Origin: a virus
Length of the DNA: 21,260 bases
Reading direction: 5' to 3' (one strand)
Virus record (IMG/VR): IMGVR_UViG_3300032828_000007
Coordinates: 1-21,260 of that record
The translations under genes and the position numbers were made by a program. Shown here one piece after another: positions 9,625-21,260 of this stretch (positions are counted from its first letter, which is position 1; every line of letters starts with the position of its first letter). The notes under the pieces were generated by a model, which saw only the letters and a program-made list of their open reading frames with translations, did not search any database and had not been told where the DNA came from.

Positions 9625-11100
9625 ATGGCTGTTCAGCTAACCGACGGCACAACGAACAACGTAGTCGACGCGACGTCGAAGGGTATCATTGTCCAGAACC
9701 CGAAGACCGCGACGCAGGCTGGTTTCGTTGGGCTCGTGGGTGTCAACGATCAGGGCACCATCGTAGCTGGCGGCGACGTCAACCCGGTCTACGTGACTCA
9801 GGGCGAGGCGAGCGGCGGCATCTATGCCGCTGCCAAGAACCTGCTCTGGGACGACACGTTCAACGCTACGGCCCAGAACACGAGCAAGTACCGGTTCGCG
9901 TTCACGACGATGACCGCGACGATGAGCGGCGGGTTCCTGAACATGAACTCGGGCTCGATTGTCACCGCCAGCACGAGCTGCGGATTCCAGTCGTTCCGCA
10001 CGTTCCCGCTGTTCGCAAAGGCCGAGCTGCGCTTCAACGTCTCCGCCCAGATCCCGAACGGCGCGCAGGCGAACCAGACGATCGAGTATGGGCTCTTCCA
10101 AGCGACTCTGAACGGTGCCGCGCCGGGAGCGCCGACCGACGGTGTCTTCTTCCGGTGGGATCCGACCGGCAACCTGCGTGGAGTCGTCAACTACAACGGC
10201 ACCGAGACGCAGACCGGCACGATTACACCACCCGCGAACAACACGAATCACGACTGGCTGATCATTGTCAACACGGACGAGGTGCTGTTCTACATCGACG
10301 GCGTGTTGAACGGATCGATCATGCTGCTGACCGCTGCGCCGACGCAGGGACAGCCGTTCATGTCCGCCGAGATGCCGATCACGTTCCGCGTCTACACCGC
10401 CGGCTCCGCTCCGGCGCTGGCGCCGATCCTCAAAGTGTCGGATGTGTTCGTCACTGAGCTGGGCCCCGATCTCACGCGCCCGTGGCCTTACCAGAAGGCC
10501 GGGTTCGGGCACATGGCCTATCAGGGTCAGAACGGTGGCACGATGGGGTCGACGAGCAATTTCGGCAACAGTGCGCTCGGCACCGCCACCGCGTTGTCGA
10601 ACACGGCCGTCAGCACCGGTAACCCGGTCGGCCTCGGCGGATACTCGCACGATCTCGCGACGCTGGCCGCCGGCACAGACGGCATCGTTACGAGTTTCCA
10701 GAATCCAGCGGGCGGTGTGAACCAGACGCCTCGCAACCTCGTCATCACGGGTGTGTGGGTGCACAGCGTGGTCGACTCGGGGCTGACCGGTGGTCCGCTC
10801 GCGTTGCTTTACACTCTCGCGTACGGTCATACGGCCGTATCGCTTGCGACCGCTGAGTCCGCATCGTTTGCTACTGGCACGACCAAGGCCCCGCGTCGCA
10901 TCGCGCTCGGAGTCGAAGGTTGCGCCGCCGCCGCGACCGCTGGCACGCTTCTGAGCCCGGGAGGAATTACCCGTCAGTTTTCGTCGCCGATTGTGGTGGC
11001 CCCGGGTGAGTTTGTCGCGCTCGTAGCACGCAACGTAGGCACCGTAGCGAGCGCCGGATCCGTCGTGCACATGGTCGGCTTCGACGCCCACTTCGAGTAA
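9625..11100 (+). CDS. Large structural protein with LamG-like beta-sandwich domain (491 aa)
   Basis: The N-terminus (about 1-65) is a small beta domain (MAVQLTDGTTNNVVDATSKG). Residues about 72-290 read like a concanavalin A/LamG-like sandwich: LLWDDTFNATAQNTSKYRF, SFRTFPLFAKAELRFNVSAQ, ATLNGAAPGAPTDGVFFRWD, HDWLIIVNTDEVLFYIDGVL. Such domains often bind sugars or stabilise capsids. The C-terminal part (about 305-491) is Gly/Thr/Ala-rich and beta-rich, typical of virion decoration or fibre shafts. The protein is found in many phages as an abundant structural protein. It is the largest structural ORF here. No major capsid protein is recognised, so it could also be the main virion surface protein, though its fold argues against HK97. 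Confidence 0.65.
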   Translation: MAVQLTDGTTNNVVDATSKGIIVQNPKTATQAGFVGLVGVNDQGTIVAGGDVNPVYVTQGEASGGIYAAAKNLLWDDTFNATAQNTSKYRFAFTTMTATMSGGFLNMNSGSIVTASTSCGFQSFRTFPLFAKAELRFNVSAQIPNGAQANQTIEYGLFQATLNGAAPGAPTDGVFFRWDPTGNLRGVVNYNGTETQTGTITPPANNTNHDWLIIVNTDEVLFYIDGVLNGSIMLLTAAPTQGQPFMSAEMPITFRVYTAGSAPALAPILKVSDVFVTELGPDLTRPWPYQKAGFGHMAYQGQNGGTMGSTSNFGNSALGTATALSNTAVSTGNPVGLGGYSHDLATLAAGTDGIVTSFQNPAGGVNQTPRNLVITGVWVHSVVDSGLTGGPLALLYTLAYGHTAVSLATAESASFATGTTKAPRRIALGVEGCAAAATAGTLLSPGGITRQFSSPIVVAPGEFVALVARNVGTVASAGSVVHMVGFDAHFE

Positions 11101-12080: not shown

Positions 12081-12536
12081 ATGACATGGGGTAACAACGG
12101 TGCCGGACCGATGGGCGTGCAGCCTTTCGCGCCCGGACAGGTAGGTCAGCCGCCGGGACAGGGGGGCGCGACGCTGCCCCCGCTCTATAATCCGAGCTTC
12201 GAGTCCGTGATGGCCGCGGTCTCGCGCGGCGAGATCTCGTTGAACCAGATCGTGGCGAACAACTCTCAGTTCGGCGGCAACGGTGCCTCGATTCAGGCGT
12301 CAGCCGGCAACCCGACGCTGATGCAGGCGATCTCACAGGGCCTGCCTCAGAACGGCACGAATGGACTGAACGGTATCGGCCCGGGCGGCGGGACCGTGAA
12401 CGCGAGCTACGCGAGCTGCAACGCGGCGCCGGGCTCACTTCACTCCGGCGGCCTCGACAATACCACCACGTGCGATCCGCGTGCCACGGTGGCCGCGACG
12501 TCGCTCCTGTCTCCGATCCAGTACGGCGGGAACTAA
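12081..12536 (+). CDS. Gly/Asn/Gln-rich protein, paralog 1 (151 aa)
   Basis: A low-complexity protein rich in Gly, Asn, Gln and Pro, likely disordered at both ends. The centre has FESVMAAVSRGEISLNQIVA, and the C-terminus reads LSPIQYGGN. The following two proteins share the D/E-S/T-V-L/M-A...R-G motif, and the next one also ends in S-P-x-Q-Y-x-G. GAGGA sits about eight bases before the ATG. Such proteins in structural regions of phages are often minor virion proteins or tail-tip adaptors, but I cannot assign a role. Confidence 0.6.
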   Translation: MTWGNNGAGPMGVQPFAPGQVGQPPGQGGATLPPLYNPSFESVMAAVSRGEISLNQIVANNSQFGGNGASIQASAGNPTLMQAISQGLPQNGTNGLNGIGPGGGTVNASYASCNAAPGSLHSGGLDNTTTCDPRATVAATSLLSPIQYGGN

Positions 12537-12538
12537 CC

Positions 12539-12997
12539 ATGACCATCTACGGAACGCCCGGCGGCACGCCGCTCAACACGACTCCGTTTCAGGGTACGCA
12601 GCCGGGCAACGCGGCACAGGCCACCCTGCAGCAGCAGAACCCCGGCGTTGGGCTCTTCCCGCCGAACTCGAACAACGCGAGCGGAGACACCGTGCTCGCT
12701 GCGCAGTCGCGCGGTTCGGTGCCGGCGAATGTGCTCGTCACCAACCTTGGGGTGCGGGATTCGCGCCCGGGTCGCAGCGCCAGTGAAACGCTCTCGCACG
12801 CGGGCGCTAACGGCGCGGGTGAAACCGCGGCGGCCCCGTACGCTTGGCCCAACTCTGCCGCGTCAGGCGGTAACTCACTCGGCGCTGGCGGCTTGAACCA
12901 GACGCCAAACGACGCGAGTGGCGAGCAGACCATTTGTGTCGCTGGCGCGCCCGCCTCTTTTCCAACCATCGCCTCGCCGGCACAGTATCAGGGGTAA
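12539..12997 (+). CDS. Gly/Asn/Gln-rich protein, paralog 2 (152 aa)
   Basis: Close in size to its upstream neighbour and built alike: disordered N-terminus (GTPGGTPLNTTPFQGTQPG), central SGDTVLAAQSRGSVPANVLV, and a C-terminal GGL...IASPAQYQG that corresponds to the GGL...LSPIQYGG of paralog 1. It begins two bases after the preceding stop, with GGGAA upstream. No catalytic motif or membrane segment. Probably a virion-associated, largely disordered protein. Confidence 0.6.
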   Translation: MTIYGTPGGTPLNTTPFQGTQPGNAAQATLQQQNPGVGLFPPNSNNASGDTVLAAQSRGSVPANVLVTNLGVRDSRPGRSASETLSHAGANGAGETAAAPYAWPNSAASGGNSLGAGGLNQTPNDASGEQTICVAGAPASFPTIASPAQYQG

Positions 12998-13000
12998 TGT

Positions 13001-13402
13001 ATGGCCGCAACATTCTGGACCGGCGCTCAGGCAGACGCTTTTGATACAAACGCCGGACAGCCCGGCGGGCCGCCGAACGGTTCGCAGATGCAGGGGAATC
13101 CGAACCCACTGCAGATCACGGTGCCCGCGGTAGCCGTCGAGCCGCCGTTGCCACAGAACACGGCCGCCGCGCCTCTCACCACTCAGCTCGCGGCCGGCAA
13201 CATTCCGCACAACCTGCAACCGACCAACACGCAGCAGGCCGGCGGCGACAGCGTGCTCGCGCAGCTCAATCGCGGACAGGTGATGCTGGGTGATTCGACC
13301 TACGGGCAGAGCATCGCGCCCGGCGCGGCTCCGCCTCCTGTTCCGACTGGCGCGGCCAGCGGCGTCACTTACTCAGGCAACGGCAACTACTCAGGGATGT
13401 AA
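13001..13402 (+). CDS. Gly/Pro/Gln-rich protein, paralog 3 (133 aa)
   Basis: Starts three bases after the preceding stop, with AGGGG upstream. The N-terminal half is Pro/Asn/Gln-rich (QPGGPPNGSQMQGNPNPLQI). It contains AGGDSVLAQLNRGQVMLGDS, the same D-S-V-L-A...N/S-R-G core as paralogs 1 and 2, and ends in Gly/Tyr/Asn (YSGNGNYSGM). The similarity outside the core is weak, so the homology is an inference supported by the tandem order. Confidence 0.6.
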   Translation: MAATFWTGAQADAFDTNAGQPGGPPNGSQMQGNPNPLQITVPAVAVEPPLPQNTAAAPLTTQLAAGNIPHNLQPTNTQQAGGDSVLAQLNRGQVMLGDSTYGQSIAPGAAPPPVPTGAASGVTYSGNGNYSGM

Positions 13403-16710: not shown

Positions 16711-17013
16711 GTGATTGAATTCAAACAGCAGCTGTTGGACGACTTCATTGTCGTCGCGCTGATCGACACGCCGGCTGCGCAGGGTATGATCAAGCTGCCG
16801 GACTGGCAGCGCACACTGCGTGGTGAAGTCACCGCGGCCGGACCGGGCCGCATGCTTCCGTTCGGTGGTCGCGCTCCGATGGAGTGCAAGGTCGGTGACA
16901 TCGTGACGTTCGCCGCGACGGCGGGGATGGATACTAATTACGGTGTTGGCCGCAAGATTCGGATGATGAGGGATGAAGACGTCGATACGATTGAGGTGCG
17001 CGATGACGTATGA
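16711..17013 (+). CDS. groES: GroES-type co-chaperonin (100 aa), GTG start
   Basis: The protein lines up along the whole GroES fold: LLDDFIVVALIDTPA (first strand), mobile-loop core AQGMIKLP, RGEVTAAGPGRMLPFGG, KVGDIVTF, and IRMMRDEDVDTIEV (the classic 'L-R-E-x-D-V' end). The mobile loop carries a hydrophobic tripeptide (M-I-K) where GroES has I-V-L/I, and the roof loop is present. GroES caps GroEL and closes the folding cage; phage versions, such as T4 gp31, help fold the large capsid protein with host GroEL. GAGGAG is about eight bases before the GTG. The next gene starts inside its last 11 bases. No GroEL is encoded in this window. Confidence 0.85.
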   Translation: MIEFKQQLLDDFIVVALIDTPAAQGMIKLPDWQRTLRGEVTAAGPGRMLPFGGRAPMECKVGDIVTFAATAGMDTNYGVGRKIRMMRDEDVDTIEVRDDV

Positions 17014-17296
17014 TCGCAAAGCCTATATTCGACGCTGGAGCAAAGAGAACAAACAGAAGATTCTGGATCAGCGTCTTCGCCGTCAGTTCGGAGATTTTCC
17101 ACCGCGGCCAGACGTCTGTGAAGTTTGTGGCGAACCTCCATCCCTAAAGAAAGCGCTGTGTCTGGATCACGAACATTTGACCGGCACATTTCGTGGATGG
17201 CTTTGTCATCGGTGTAACACCGCACTCGGATTGTTACGAGACAGCTCGGATCTCTGCGTCGCGCTCGCGCGTTATTTACGGGAGAAACAGCTGTGA
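17003..17296 (+). CDS. Recombination endonuclease VII-like protein (97 aa)
   Basis: Residues 39-75 contain the Endonuclease_VII signature: CEVCGE (zinc C39, C42), CLDHEHLTGTFRGWLCHRCN (D55, H56, H58, R64; zinc C68, C71; N72), then ALGLLRDS. T4 endonuclease VII cuts branched DNA such as Holliday junctions; short relatives act as HNH/His-Me nucleases and in some phages support packaging by clearing branches. A basic N-terminal helix (KAYIRRWSKENKQKILDQRL) likely binds DNA. The ATG at 17003 follows GAGGTG and overlaps the preceding gene by 11 bases; its TGA overlaps the next GTG. Confidence 0.85.
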   Translation: MTYDRKAYIRRWSKENKQKILDQRLRRQFGDFPPRPDVCEVCGEPPSLKKALCLDHEHLTGTFRGWLCHRCNTALGLLRDSSDLCVALARYLREKQL

Positions 17297-17838
17297 TCCT
17301 CACCCCCGAACTTGAGAACGTAGCGCGAAACATAACCGTGCTCCGTGACCGCGTACTCGTGAAGCCGCTGCCGTATGTGCATCCTCTTCTGGCGACGCCC
17401 GGCATCGAGATCCAGAAGGGTGTCGTGATCGCGGTCGGCTACGGCCGACGCCAGCGCCGTAAGGTCGCGTTCAAGCAGCAGATCGACAACACGCCTCCGG
17501 TAATCGGACCGGATGGTAAGACCGTGATGAAGTTTGGTCAGAGCCGGCTCACCGGTAAGACGCTCTACTTCGAGGACGGCGACGAGACCGGCAAGATCAT
17601 TCCGATGCAAGTGAAGCCGGGTGACGTGGTCGAATTCAGTTTTCGCAACATCACGATTGTCGACTTCGATCGTGTTGGGTTTTCGGGCATCGGCCCGCTT
17701 GCGTTCATCTGGCAGAAGGCCATCTATTCCGTCGACCCAGACGAATCGCTGAACGAATGTTTGCTCTGGCAGCAGAGCGCGGGCTATGACCGCCACGGCA
17801 ACTTCATGTCGGGCGCCGAGGACTGGCACCGAGCGTGA
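17293..17838 (+). CDS. Second GroES-like beta-barrel protein (181 aa)
   Basis: The first 50 residues (ITVLRDRVLVKPLPYV, then GIEIQKGVVIAVGYGR) and residues about 103-150 (IIPMQVKPGDVVEFSFRN) follow the GroES-fold order: L-x-D-R-V-L-V-K-P, a GxVxAVGxG turn, then V-K-P-G-D-x-V-x-F. The mobile loop with the G-G-I-V-I-P element is not present as such, and about 50 residues are inserted between the halves (KQQIDNTPPVIGPDGKTVMK and beyond). A C-terminal extension is rich in Trp and Asp. It might modify chaperone action or have gained another role. The GTG at 17293 overlaps the EndoVII stop (GTGA), and its TGA overlaps the start of the next gene. Confidence 0.6.
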   Translation: MILTPELENVARNITVLRDRVLVKPLPYVHPLLATPGIEIQKGVVIAVGYGRRQRRKVAFKQQIDNTPPVIGPDGKTVMKFGQSRLTGKTLYFEDGDETGKIIPMQVKPGDVVEFSFRNITIVDFDRVGFSGIGPLAFIWQKAIYSVDPDESLNECLLWQQSAGYDRHGNFMSGAEDWHRA

Positions 17839-18656
17839 GGAAACATAGCGGGAAGGCGGAATTCGCGCGCACGGTCTGCGATTCAGTCGTTGATGGGCGC
17901 CCGGATTTCTACAACGCTCCAGCGAAACGCCCCGTTTCCAAGGAAGAAGCCCAGAAACACGGCTGGTCGCACTACTTCGACGGCGTGAGCCAATGTCCGC
18001 AGGGTCACATTGCGGCCCGGTACTGCTCGAACCCGGGCATTTGTGTCGACTGTAAGCGTATCGGCGAGGGAAAACCACCAATCTACTCGGTGACGATGCT
18101 CGCGAGCGACCTGACGGGTGCAAAACCGTTCGTGAATCCGCTCGCGGACGCCCGATTCGTGTGGACCGACGAGAAAAAGTCTCAGTTGCTGTCCGCGTGG
18201 ATCAACACCGGGGGCGACATGCTCGCCGCAGTGAAGATTGTCGGCTGCCAGCCCGAGCACGTGATCGATTTGAAGGCGTCCGACCCGGATTTTCAGGCCC
18301 GTTACGAAGCCGCGCGCCTGAAAGTCGATATCGTCCAGCTTTGGTCGATGGAAAAGCGCGCCGCCGACAACGACCGTGTTGGTTTGGCAATGTCGCAGAG
18401 CAAATTTTCGGAATTCGGCGCCAAGACAGGTTTGGCTGACCGACCAGCTATAAACCCGGAGCAGATGCGTGCGGGACTTGCCCAACTCCTATCGAGCCTT
18501 AGACGCTCGATTAGTCAACAAGACCGACTTGAGTCAGCTGCAAGAGCTGCTCGAACTGTGGGATCGCATGACACCCCCGCAACAGCTGCTTCAGGAGAGG
18601 GAGTGGCGGAGCAGGGCGTACTGGCACACCCACACGACAATAGCGACTTGGTTTAA
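17835..18656 (+). CDS. terS: Small-terminase-like protein with N-terminal zinc finger (273 aa)
   Basis: Residues about 40-75 (HYFDGVSQCPQGHIAARYCS, then CVDCKR) have the Cys/His pattern C54, H58, C64, C70, C73, a finger found at the N-terminus of several phage nucleases and regulators. Residues 108-205 are helical with a DNA-binding layout (WTDEKKSQLLSAWINTGGDM; AAVKIVGCQPEHVIDL; SKFSEFGAKTGL) as in small terminase subunits. It lies directly before the large terminase ATPase. Its job would be to recognise phage DNA for packaging. The last 63 residues (18468-18656) overlap the next gene in another frame and look poor (Ala/Gly/Ser/His), so the real end may be earlier or the overlap genuine. GTG start at 17835 overlaps the preceding stop. 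Confidence 0.65.
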   Translation: MRKHSGKAEFARTVCDSVVDGRPDFYNAPAKRPVSKEEAQKHGWSHYFDGVSQCPQGHIAARYCSNPGICVDCKRIGEGKPPIYSVTMLASDLTGAKPFVNPLADARFVWTDEKKSQLLSAWINTGGDMLAAVKIVGCQPEHVIDLKASDPDFQARYEAARLKVDIVQLWSMEKRAADNDRVGLAMSQSKFSEFGAKTGLADRPAINPEQMRAGLAQLLSSLRRSISQQDRLESAARAARTVGSHDTPATAASGEGVAEQGVLAHPHDNSDLV

Positions 18657-19356
18657 GACGCCAGAAGTTCGCGCGGCGTATCCAAAGCAGATGCGCCACT
18701 TCAAACTTGGCGCGACGCACGACGAGCGCGGCCTGTTTGGCGGCAACCGAACCGGCAAGACGCATTGCGGGTGCTACGAAGACACGCTCCATCTGACAGG
18801 GCTCTACCCTGATTGGTGGGAAGGTCGGCGATTCGACCGACCGATCGGCGCGTGGGTTGCGACTGATACCGCGAAGAACGTCCGCGACATCCTGCAGGAG
18901 AAATTCTGTGGCGAGCCGGGCGTTCCGGTGCTGTTCGGTACCGGCATGATTCCGATCGATCTGTTCGCGGGCGACCCGGCTACGAAGCACGGAATCGCGA
19001 ACGCGTATGAGTCGGTGCACGTGCACCATCACACGAACGGCATCTACGACGGCGTCTCGACGCTGATGTTCAAGTCCTACGACCAAGGACGTCAGGCGTT
19101 TCAGGGCACCCAGCAGGATCTGATCCACCCGGACGAAGAGCCGAAGATCGAGATCTACACGGAGTGCTCGCTGCGGTTGATGAGCACCGCGCCGGGTGAG
19201 AAGAACGGCTCGCTAGTGCTGACTGAGACGCCGCTGCTGGGTATTTCGGAGCTGATGATCTCGTTCATGCCTGAGTTGAACCCCGCGCACGATCTGATGA
19301 AGAAGCGCGAGTACAATCACGAAGTGCAGGACTACGACATGGTGGTCGATGAGTGA
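18469..19356 (+). CDS. terL: Large terminase, ATPase half (295 aa)
   Basis: The motor part of the packaging machine, which pumps DNA into the head using ATP. Walker A is GLFGGNRTGKTH (about residues 88-99), Walker B is DLIHPDEEP (D222, E223, E224), and a motif III LTETPL at 251-256 links ATP hydrolysis to movement. The frame ends at ...DYDMVVDE, where whole terminases go on into the nuclease domain; here that domain is a separate ORF. The annotated GTG at 18469 gives a 188-base overlap with the preceding gene; TTG at 18529 or ATG at 18568 are other starts, though the helix SQLQELLELWDRM in front of that ATG looks conserved. See the nuclease half. Confidence 0.85.
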   Translation: MRDLPNSYRALDARLVNKTDLSQLQELLELWDRMTPPQQLLQEREWRSRAYWHTHTTIATWFKTPEVRAAYPKQMRHFKLGATHDERGLFGGNRTGKTHCGCYEDTLHLTGLYPDWWEGRRFDRPIGAWVATDTAKNVRDILQEKFCGEPGVPVLFGTGMIPIDLFAGDPATKHGIANAYESVHVHHHTNGIYDGVSTLMFKSYDQGRQAFQGTQQDLIHPDEEPKIEIYTECSLRLMSTAPGEKNGSLVLTETPLLGISELMISFMPELNPAHDLMKKREYNHEVQDYDMVVDE

Positions 19357-20134
19357 GCTGAGTCGTGTCGCCACGTTTCTGGATATGGACGACGTGCCAC
19401 ATCTGACAGAGGAAGAGAAACGCAAGATTTTGCGCGGTGTCGCACCCTACGAGCTGCAGGCTCGTAAGAGCGGCATCCCGGGTCACGGCGTTGGGGCGAT
19501 CTATCCGATCGCTGAAGCGCAGATGTTGATCCCGCCGTTCGAGATCCCTATGCACTGGCCCCGCAGCTACGGCATGGATCCGGGCTGGGTCTGCACCGCG
19601 GTGCTCTGGTTCGCGTGGGACATCGATCACCCGTACGTAGACCGCGACGGCAACACGCGCTACCCCGCGGTGGCGTACGACGAATACTATGTCGGGCAGG
19701 AACACCCTGCGATCCACGTCGCCTCGATCAACCTGCGCGGGAAGTGGATGCCGGGCGTCATCGATCCGGCAGCCGAGAAGGCTCGCGGGCCCGACGGCGA
19801 ATTGCTGATCGAGGCGTACCGCGGTCTCGGCCTGAACGTCTACAAGGCCGACAACGCGGTGCGGTCTGGGATCCTGACGTGTTGGGACGCGCTCTCGACG
19901 CAGAAGCTGCGGATCTTCAACACGCTCGTTCATTGGACGAAAGAGGTGCGCCTGTATCGTCGCGACGAGAAGGGCGAGATCATCAAGAAAAACGATCACC
20001 TCATGGATGCCATGCGGTACAACCTGATGAGCGGATTCCAGTACGCGAAGGTGCCGCCCGAAGGTGAGAACGGGATCCCGTGGCACACGTGGGATCCAGC
20101 GATGGTTACGCCCGGGGGCATATGGACAGGTTGA
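19349..20134 (+). CDS. terL: Large terminase, nuclease half (261 aa)
   Basis: The second part of the large terminase. It begins with the linker usually joining the domains (ATFLDMDDVPHLTEEEKRKI; ARKSGIPGHGVGAIYPI) and holds an RNase-H-like nuclease fold with acidic metal ligands: SYGMDPGW (D77), GVIDPAAE (D139) and KNDHLMDAMRY (D216, D220). It cuts concatemeric DNA to the packaged unit. Its ATG lies in the last eight bases of the ATPase half (ATGAGTGA), one frame over, so it is made as a separate, coupled protein or by a +1 frameshift. Together the halves total 556 residues, close to a normal TerL. No stop interrupts this frame shortly upstream of the ATG. Confidence 0.85.
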   Translation: MSELSRVATFLDMDDVPHLTEEEKRKILRGVAPYELQARKSGIPGHGVGAIYPIAEAQMLIPPFEIPMHWPRSYGMDPGWVCTAVLWFAWDIDHPYVDRDGNTRYPAVAYDEYYVGQEHPAIHVASINLRGKWMPGVIDPAAEKARGPDGELLIEAYRGLGLNVYKADNAVRSGILTCWDALSTQKLRIFNTLVHWTKEVRLYRRDEKGEIIKKNDHLMDAMRYNLMSGFQYAKVPPEGENGIPWHTWDPAMVTPGGIWTG

Positions 20135-20821: not shown

Positions 20822-21260
20822 GTGACTACAAACTCCGGCGATAACCTTGATCTCATCAGCAGCCGTCCCGGCGAGACCGGGCGGCTGCCTGATAGTCCCG
20901 GTTTCCGGATCAAAGACCCGGAAGCGTTGCTCGACCGCATCCGCCGCTTCTACGACGAGGGCGTCGGCGCGTGGGAAGAGAACCGCCGCATGCACTCGGA
21001 AGACCTGAACTTCATCTACAACTCCGAGGCGATGGGCCAGTGGGATCCGGTCGTCCTGCAGAACCGCCGCGGTAAGCCGAGCTACACGTTCAACCGGTGC
21101 CTCCAGCCGGTCAACATCGTGATCGCTGATATGCGTCAGACGCGCCCGGCCGGCAAAGTGCGTCCGGCCAGTGAGGGCGCCAGTGAGGCGGTCGCGGACA
21201 TCTTCGGCGGCCTGTGCCGCTCGATCGAGCAGTGCTCGCGCGCCGCCGACATCTACATGG
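20822..21260 (+). CDS. Portal protein, P22-like, partial (runs off right edge)
   Basis: At least 146 residues are visible, and the frame stays open to the end. The N-terminal part (LLDRIRRFYDEGVGAWEENR; EDLNFIYNSEAMGQWD; RGKPSYTFNRCLQPVNIVIA; DMRQTRPAGKVRP) follows the P22-type portal pattern, with the 'R-G-x-P-x-x-T-x-N-R-x-x-x-x-V-x' block and the 'x-x-R-Q-x-R-P-x-x-K' block. The portal is the 12-fold ring at one capsid vertex through which terminase pumps DNA. A GTG at 20822 with a purine-rich AGAG upstream is the likely start. Position right after terminase fits packaging order. Confidence 0.8.
   Translation, partial: MTTNSGDNLDLISSRPGETGRLPDSPGFRIKDPEALLDRIRRFYDEGVGAWEENRRMHSEDLNFIYNSEAMGQWDPVVLQNRRGKPSYTFNRCLQPVNIVIADMRQTRPAGKVRPASEGASEAVADIFGGLCRSIEQCSRAADIYM

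Follow-up and report, generated by a model that had tools for sequence, protein, structure and literature searches.

The window analysed here, a whole IMG/VR record of 21,260 bases (a metagenomic contig classed as linear and probably a fragment), very probably carries a genuine two-gene large terminase (TerL), in which translation of the two genes is coupled, the two chains assemble as an ordinary TerL, and the chain is broken at a site used recurrently in the family. The first gene encodes the ASCE ATPase core, with Walker A, Walker B and the coupling motif, and the second the remainder of the protein: the ATPase lid, the linker and the RNase H-like nuclease. The geometry of the overlap suggests that the ribosome completes the first gene and restarts at the overlapping start of the second, and such coupling would yield both chains in linked amounts. 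The ATPase and nuclease chains would need to associate non-covalently, since the nuclease chain contributes part of the ATPase fold; homology and single-chain models point to such an association. From the anatomy of the locus and from homology, the pair is predicted to act as an ordinary TerL docked on a P22-type portal, and ATPase activity and normal packaging function would be expected from the sequence and the models. The break is probably old within the clade of the window; in the wider family, the fused or split state has switched more than once, always at one position, and this position serves as a gene boundary that tolerates insertions and has been repeatedly visited by HNH/EndoVII-type endonucleases.

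The terL locus and its two chains

The terL pair lies between a TerS-like ORF and a P22-like portal gene, with two small ORFs separating the nuclease ORF from the latter (Table 1). The motifs reported in the first-pass annotation were all located: the ATPase ORF contains Walker A, Walker B and the coupling motif, the residues of which are conserved among homologues, and the nuclease ORF contains the four metal-ligand Asp residues, which show at least 90% conservation, or no variation at all, across 74 homologues. The overlap that it described is also present, with a +1 frame step from the ATPase ORF to the nuclease ORF. The ATPase ORF matches PF03237 (Terminase_6N, 1.3e-9; 2.1e-13 for the read-through protein described below), the nuclease ORF matches PF17289 (Terminase_6C, 1.8e-6), and residues 44–239 of the nuclease chain align with the P22 gp2 nuclease 4dkw (VIA-align, Z 24.8). 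A search of NCBIfam with both halves gave no match, and two of the PHROG families that the halves match (phrog_31467 and phrog_30463) carry the label of unknown function. Judged from its sequence, this terL belongs to the Terminase_6 (P22/T4-like) family by both the ATPase and the nuclease criteria. It is encoded not as one polypeptide but by two ORFs that differ in frame and have separate start codons, and is therefore filed as a split variant rather than as an ordinary Terminase_6 TerL. The start of the ATPase ORF lies within the TerS-like ORF, and substitutions relative to relatives suggest that both frames may be constrained over the shared stretch.

Table 1. Coordinates of the features discussed, in the window or in the related locus named
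Feature	Sequence	Positions	Strand	Details
TerS-like ORF	Window	17835–18656	+	Weak match to phrog_4044, terminase small subunit (E 0.0033); overlaps ATPase ORF by 188 nt
TerL ATPase chain (ASCE core)	Window	18469–19356	+	295 aa; GTG start, GGAG upstream; frame 1
Stretch shared by TerS-like and ATPase ORFs	Window	18469–18656	+	188 nt
Walker A	Window	18739–18762	+	GGNRTGKT
Walker B	Window	19117–19140	+	DLIHPDEE
Coupling motif	Window	19222–19233	+	TETP
Overlap ATGAGTGA	Window	19349–19356	+	8 nt; holds nuclease-gene start codon and ATPase-gene stop codon
Lid-plus-nuclease chain of TerL	Window	19349–20134	+	261 aa; ATG start; frame 2
End of ATPase domain (last strand, lid helices) and linker	Window	19349–19486	+	First ~46 codons of nuclease gene
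Catalytic acidic residues	Window	19577, 19763, 19994, 20006	+	D77, D139, D216, D220
P22-like portal gene	Window	20822–21260	+	PF16510, 7.6e-20; cut by window end
GroES-like ORF	Window	16711–17013
Endonuclease_7 ORF	Window	16973–17296	+	PF02945, 2.8e-14
GroES-like ORF	Window	17293–17838
Gly/Pro/Gln-rich ORFs	Window	12081–13402	+	Common motif like xxVLAAQSRGxV
Open frame, 484 aa	Window	9637–11091	-	Antisense to ORF 9625–11100
Tad2-like insert, placed by a guess from sequence	L077	4615–5205
Tad2-like insert, placed by a guess from sequence	L134	2789–3379
Small ORF between terL halves	L031	2687–2917
Small ORF between terL halves	L140	3241–3432
Small ORF between terL halves	L158	3744–4001
Small ORF between terL halves	L164	3771–4001
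Nuclease chain with apparent intein	L052	5156–6862		PF14890, 2.6e-7, below curated cut-off

Position of the break within the ATPase domain

The split had been placed exactly at the domain linker, but Pfam, solved TerL structures and AlphaFold models put it about 45 residues further upstream, inside the ATPase domain. For comparison only, a read-through protein (P0005) was built by taking AATC at 19315 as one step; the first Met of the nuclease chain is residue 261 of this protein. The ATPase ORF alone covers positions 4–153 of the 215 of PF03237, and the read-through protein positions 4–214. The crystal structure of the P74-26 TerL ATPase domain aligns with read-through residues 23–308 (Z 19.6) and the T4 gp17 ATPase domain with residues 8–305, so that these alignments (4znl and 2o0h) end at residues 305–308, corresponding to residues 45–48 of the nuclease chain; the P22 nuclease crystal aligns with residues 308–501 (Z 24.5). 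By sequence, D6E TerL from SEQRES position 199 matches positions 7–43 of the nuclease-chain profile. The start of the nuclease chain (~46 codons) is thus homologous to D6E TerL ~196–241, a stretch in which the lid residues Y213, M216 and R224 fall within the match with an offset of 3, and in which the published position of the linker is 230–241. Profile coverage, crystal alignments and the D6E match together indicate that the nuclease chain begins with the final part of the ATPase domain and the linker, ~46 residues in all. In D6E TerL, the lid Tyr touches the P-loop Arg (PMC5727402); by analogy, the same contact would span two chains here.

The models are consistent with this boundary. Residues 11–40 of the nuclease chain have a pLDDT of ~67–85 when this chain is modelled alone, and the matching blocks of the read-through model (residues 271–300) reach 75–95; confidence in the latter model is low at its artificial junction, residues 249–262. 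The distance from the coupling motif to DDVPH has a median of 34 residues both in fused proteins and in split proteins with short junctions, and of 34–36 in split proteins as a whole, as if the chain had been cut without loss. The window has a longer ATPase tail, with 37 aa of tail and 17 aa of nuclease head counted from conserved anchors (54 in all).

Junction geometry and translation of the second gene

Among 118 distinct split junctions surveyed, 79 are short and 39 have at least 150 nt (150–2,680 nt) between the halves. The nuclease start codon lies no more than 30 nt from the ATPase stop in 74 of the 79 short junctions, most often at -3 (26) or -7 (24), with seven starts at 0 and the rest nearby. 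In the -7 geometry, which is that of the window, the start codon is ATG in 17 cases, GTG in six and TTG in one, and an SD-like match precedes 20 of these 24 starts, as against 133 of 649 internal Met codons. Start codons that are retained across such varied junctions support two translationally coupled proteins, one of the options offered in the first-pass annotation.

Another of those options was programmed +1 ribosomal frameshifting, which would fuse both ORFs into a single TerL chain. The +1 relation with its 8-nt overlap is indeed common to the window and many close relatives, and in the window both frames are open together for ~55 nt. Frameshifting is nonetheless very unlikely, because the junction differs between loci in frame, spacing and content and yet keeps its start codon: all three frames are represented among the nuclease-frame offsets at the short junctions (40, 36 and 3), the 39 longer junctions separate the halves altogether, some of them with whole genes, the start codon at -7 varies only between ATG, GTG and TTG, and a conserved slippery motif was not seen in the junction listing. 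Low-level frameshifting may occur in the clade of the window, where the +1 relation is common.

It is less probable still that the split TerL is decaying and that DNA is packaged by another terminase encoded outside the 21-kb fragment. A second TerL elsewhere is conceivable in an incomplete contig, but both halves have dN/dS values of ~0.05–0.15, indicative of purifying selection (0.07–0.15 for the ATPase chain in comparisons with relatives at 65–90% identity), the catalytic residues are kept in homologues, and the pair retains its place between TerS-like and portal genes.

There is even less to be said for a group I intron or a split intein joining the halves. The terL genes of ICP1 (PMC10448857) and of the Jug phages (PMC12363816) are split by introns and, like those of the locus family studied here, consist of separate ORFs with homing endonucleases close by; an apparent intein is also present in the nuclease ORF of one relative (L052). 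However, the ICP1 and Jug genes are joined by RNA splicing, whereas the 8-nt overlap of the window halves leaves no intervening sequence that could be an intron. No Rfam match at gathering score was obtained for the window and 15 loci, and neither the ATPase tail nor the nuclease head has room for an intein.

Two-gene terminases in relatives of the window

The break is shared by relatives from other metagenomes: L002 is identical to the window, L003 has 99.7–100% amino-acid identity with mostly synonymous differences (dS 0.02–0.07), and L004 has 90–92% amino-acid identity (dS 0.7–0.8). Every relative with at least 58% identity and an assessable junction is split, so the comparison of homologues at the junction suggested in the first-pass annotation gave a shared split at 58–100% identity. 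Overall, 146 of 237 loci carrying both domains are split, as are 84 of the 162 loci in the non-redundant set (from which rows more than 85% identical with the same architecture were removed), proportions that are not a census, because relatives were collected with the window's own proteins as queries. With about half of the sampled relatives split, this TerL family is an exception to the statement that terminases are nearly always a single chain. The 84 breaks in the 162 distinct loci are all at the junction, and no frame break was found inside either domain.

Split loci are also found in cultured organisms. A GTDB-based genome collection contains 32 split and 29 fused loci, and split prophages are present in ~20 named isolates, including Azospirillum agricola (L134), A. 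cavernae (L138), Sphingomonas melonis (L141), Kushneria aurantia (L143), Phenylobacterium deserti (L155), Acetobacter musti (L156), Neptunomonas marina (L175) and Aminobacter aganoensis (L177). In MW202785, a deposited phage genome, two neighbouring CDS are each annotated as large terminase protein; a nucleotide search among isolate phages with one split relative gave no match. A one-base indel introduced into an intact terL by sequencing or assembly, the last option of the first-pass annotation, has next to no chance of being correct, for although the contig comes from a metagenome and has relatives with a single chain (such as L225, which shares ~65% identity with the split L021), this explanation is refuted by the same break in L002, L003, L004 and the isolate prophages, by the intact domains of all 162 loci and by the two annotated genes of MW202785.

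Repeated changes between fused and split forms

A tree of 44 divergent rows, on which split and fused forms intermingle, gave nine changes between the fused and split states (bootstrap range 8–10), at least five of which are forced by well-supported branches; quick trees gave nine changes with 75 rows and 18 with 162 rows, counts in which gains and losses of the split are not separated. Each terL half alone gave 11 changes, and recombination between halves could inflate such counts. A single origin of the split without reversal was also considered, and a single split clade was rejected by the AU test (p-AU 7.6e-5). The ~65% identity between L225, which is one chain, and the split L021 indicates that the transitions have been fairly recent in places. 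In a comparison made to look for exchange of halves, the correlation between N-half and C-half divergence was 0.09 in 16 divergent split rows versus 0.52 in 28 fused rows, and 0.60 versus 0.68 in the full sets.

Given that the splits arose repeatedly at the same joint and stayed stable, it can be suggested tentatively, and with some doubt, that the ASCE core and the lid-plus-nuclease are separable modules, with a second polypeptide that may dissociate, vary in amount or be exchanged between phages.

Genes inserted at the junction

Whole genes are present in some of the inserts of at least 150 nt, and 12 inserts carry HNH/EndoVII-type endonucleases: Endonuclease_7 (EndoVII) in L011, L086, L205 and L214, and HNH-type endonucleases, some assigned by mutual similarity, in L092, L139, L199, L215, L216, L052, L230 and L253. 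Other inserts include an LPD23 gene (L042), Tad2-like domains and other phage genes. In L011, which is ~90% identical to the window, the overlapping start is taken by an Endonuclease_7 ORF, whose stop in turn overlaps the start of the nuclease gene. These visiting endonucleases are probably homing endonucleases; it is possible that they caused the splits, and they could merely occupy an existing gap.

Several further observations were made on these and similar elements. The window has an Endonuclease_7 ORF of its own, flanked by GroES-like ORFs, and the core of its product is 65% identical over 48 aa to the Endonuclease_7 between the terL halves of L011. A Tad2-like (Thoeris anti-defence) Pfam domain was found in two of 42 insert proteins, the loci concerned being, as a guess from sequence, L077, L134 and possibly L269. 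A family of small ORFs (~64–86 aa, roughly '...TTSxAKRxxDxVRERGIxRGxLxxRIAR...') recurs between terL halves, and three of its four members are in prophages of halophiles. The apparent intein of L052 lies by the last catalytic Asp of the nuclease chain, and the same locus has an HNH gene between the terL halves, making two likely mobile elements in one terminase.

Comparison with known terminases

The P22-type TerL (P22 gp2) has the same families (PF03237 and PF17289), the same active-site motifs and a P22-like portal nearby. P22 gp2, gp39 of EBPR podovirus 1 and the product of gene 3 of Chlorobiaceae phage CV-1-33 are single polypeptides, whereas the window chain is broken inside the ATPase domain. 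A two-gene TerL has been described in Arthrobacter phages of cluster AY, such as BillyTP (PMC11920828), in which, as in the window, the ATPase and the nuclease are encoded by consecutive overlapping genes. The TerL family of these phages is different, however: the nuclease of BillyTP is PF20441, and that of the window is PF17289. The 198-aa nuclease gene of BillyTP starts ~14 residues upstream of what looks like the first catalytic Asp, compared with 77 in the window, so that the BillyTP break is near the true interdomain boundary; the nuclease gene of the window includes ~46 residues that belong to the ATPase domain and the linker, and its break site is not matched in cluster AY. A phmmer search of the BillyTP halves against the PDB returned chance matches only. 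Podoviridae sp. ct2G2228 (MW202785.1) belongs to the same family as the window (44–50% identity), with two separate terL genes and portal and GroES genes nearby, but its terL genes are ~130 nt apart, whereas those of the window overlap.

The open-access literature on split terminases yielded cluster AY and the intron-split cases only, and no report of a recurrent break inside the ATPase domain of the P22-like TerL family was found there. A two-gene TerL is thus already known, and what the window adds is a different TerL family and a different break site. The recurrent break between core and lid-nuclease marks a possible mechanical joint in viral packaging motors, and bears on how ATP hydrolysis in the core drives the lid, the nuclease domain and the movement of DNA. 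The halves of a two-chain motor would be open to separate purification, mixing and mutation; if the lid and nuclease are truly on a separable polypeptide, they could differ in amount from the core or be traded among phages. In split loci, TerL can be overlooked or cut short by automatic annotation and in phage taxonomy based on TerL.

Other features of the window

Elsewhere in the window, consecutive Gly/Pro/Gln-rich ORFs sharing a common motif resemble tandem paralogues, the first of which has no Pfam or PHROG match. A long open frame on the minus strand, antisense to a longer ORF, is probably an artefact of high GC content.
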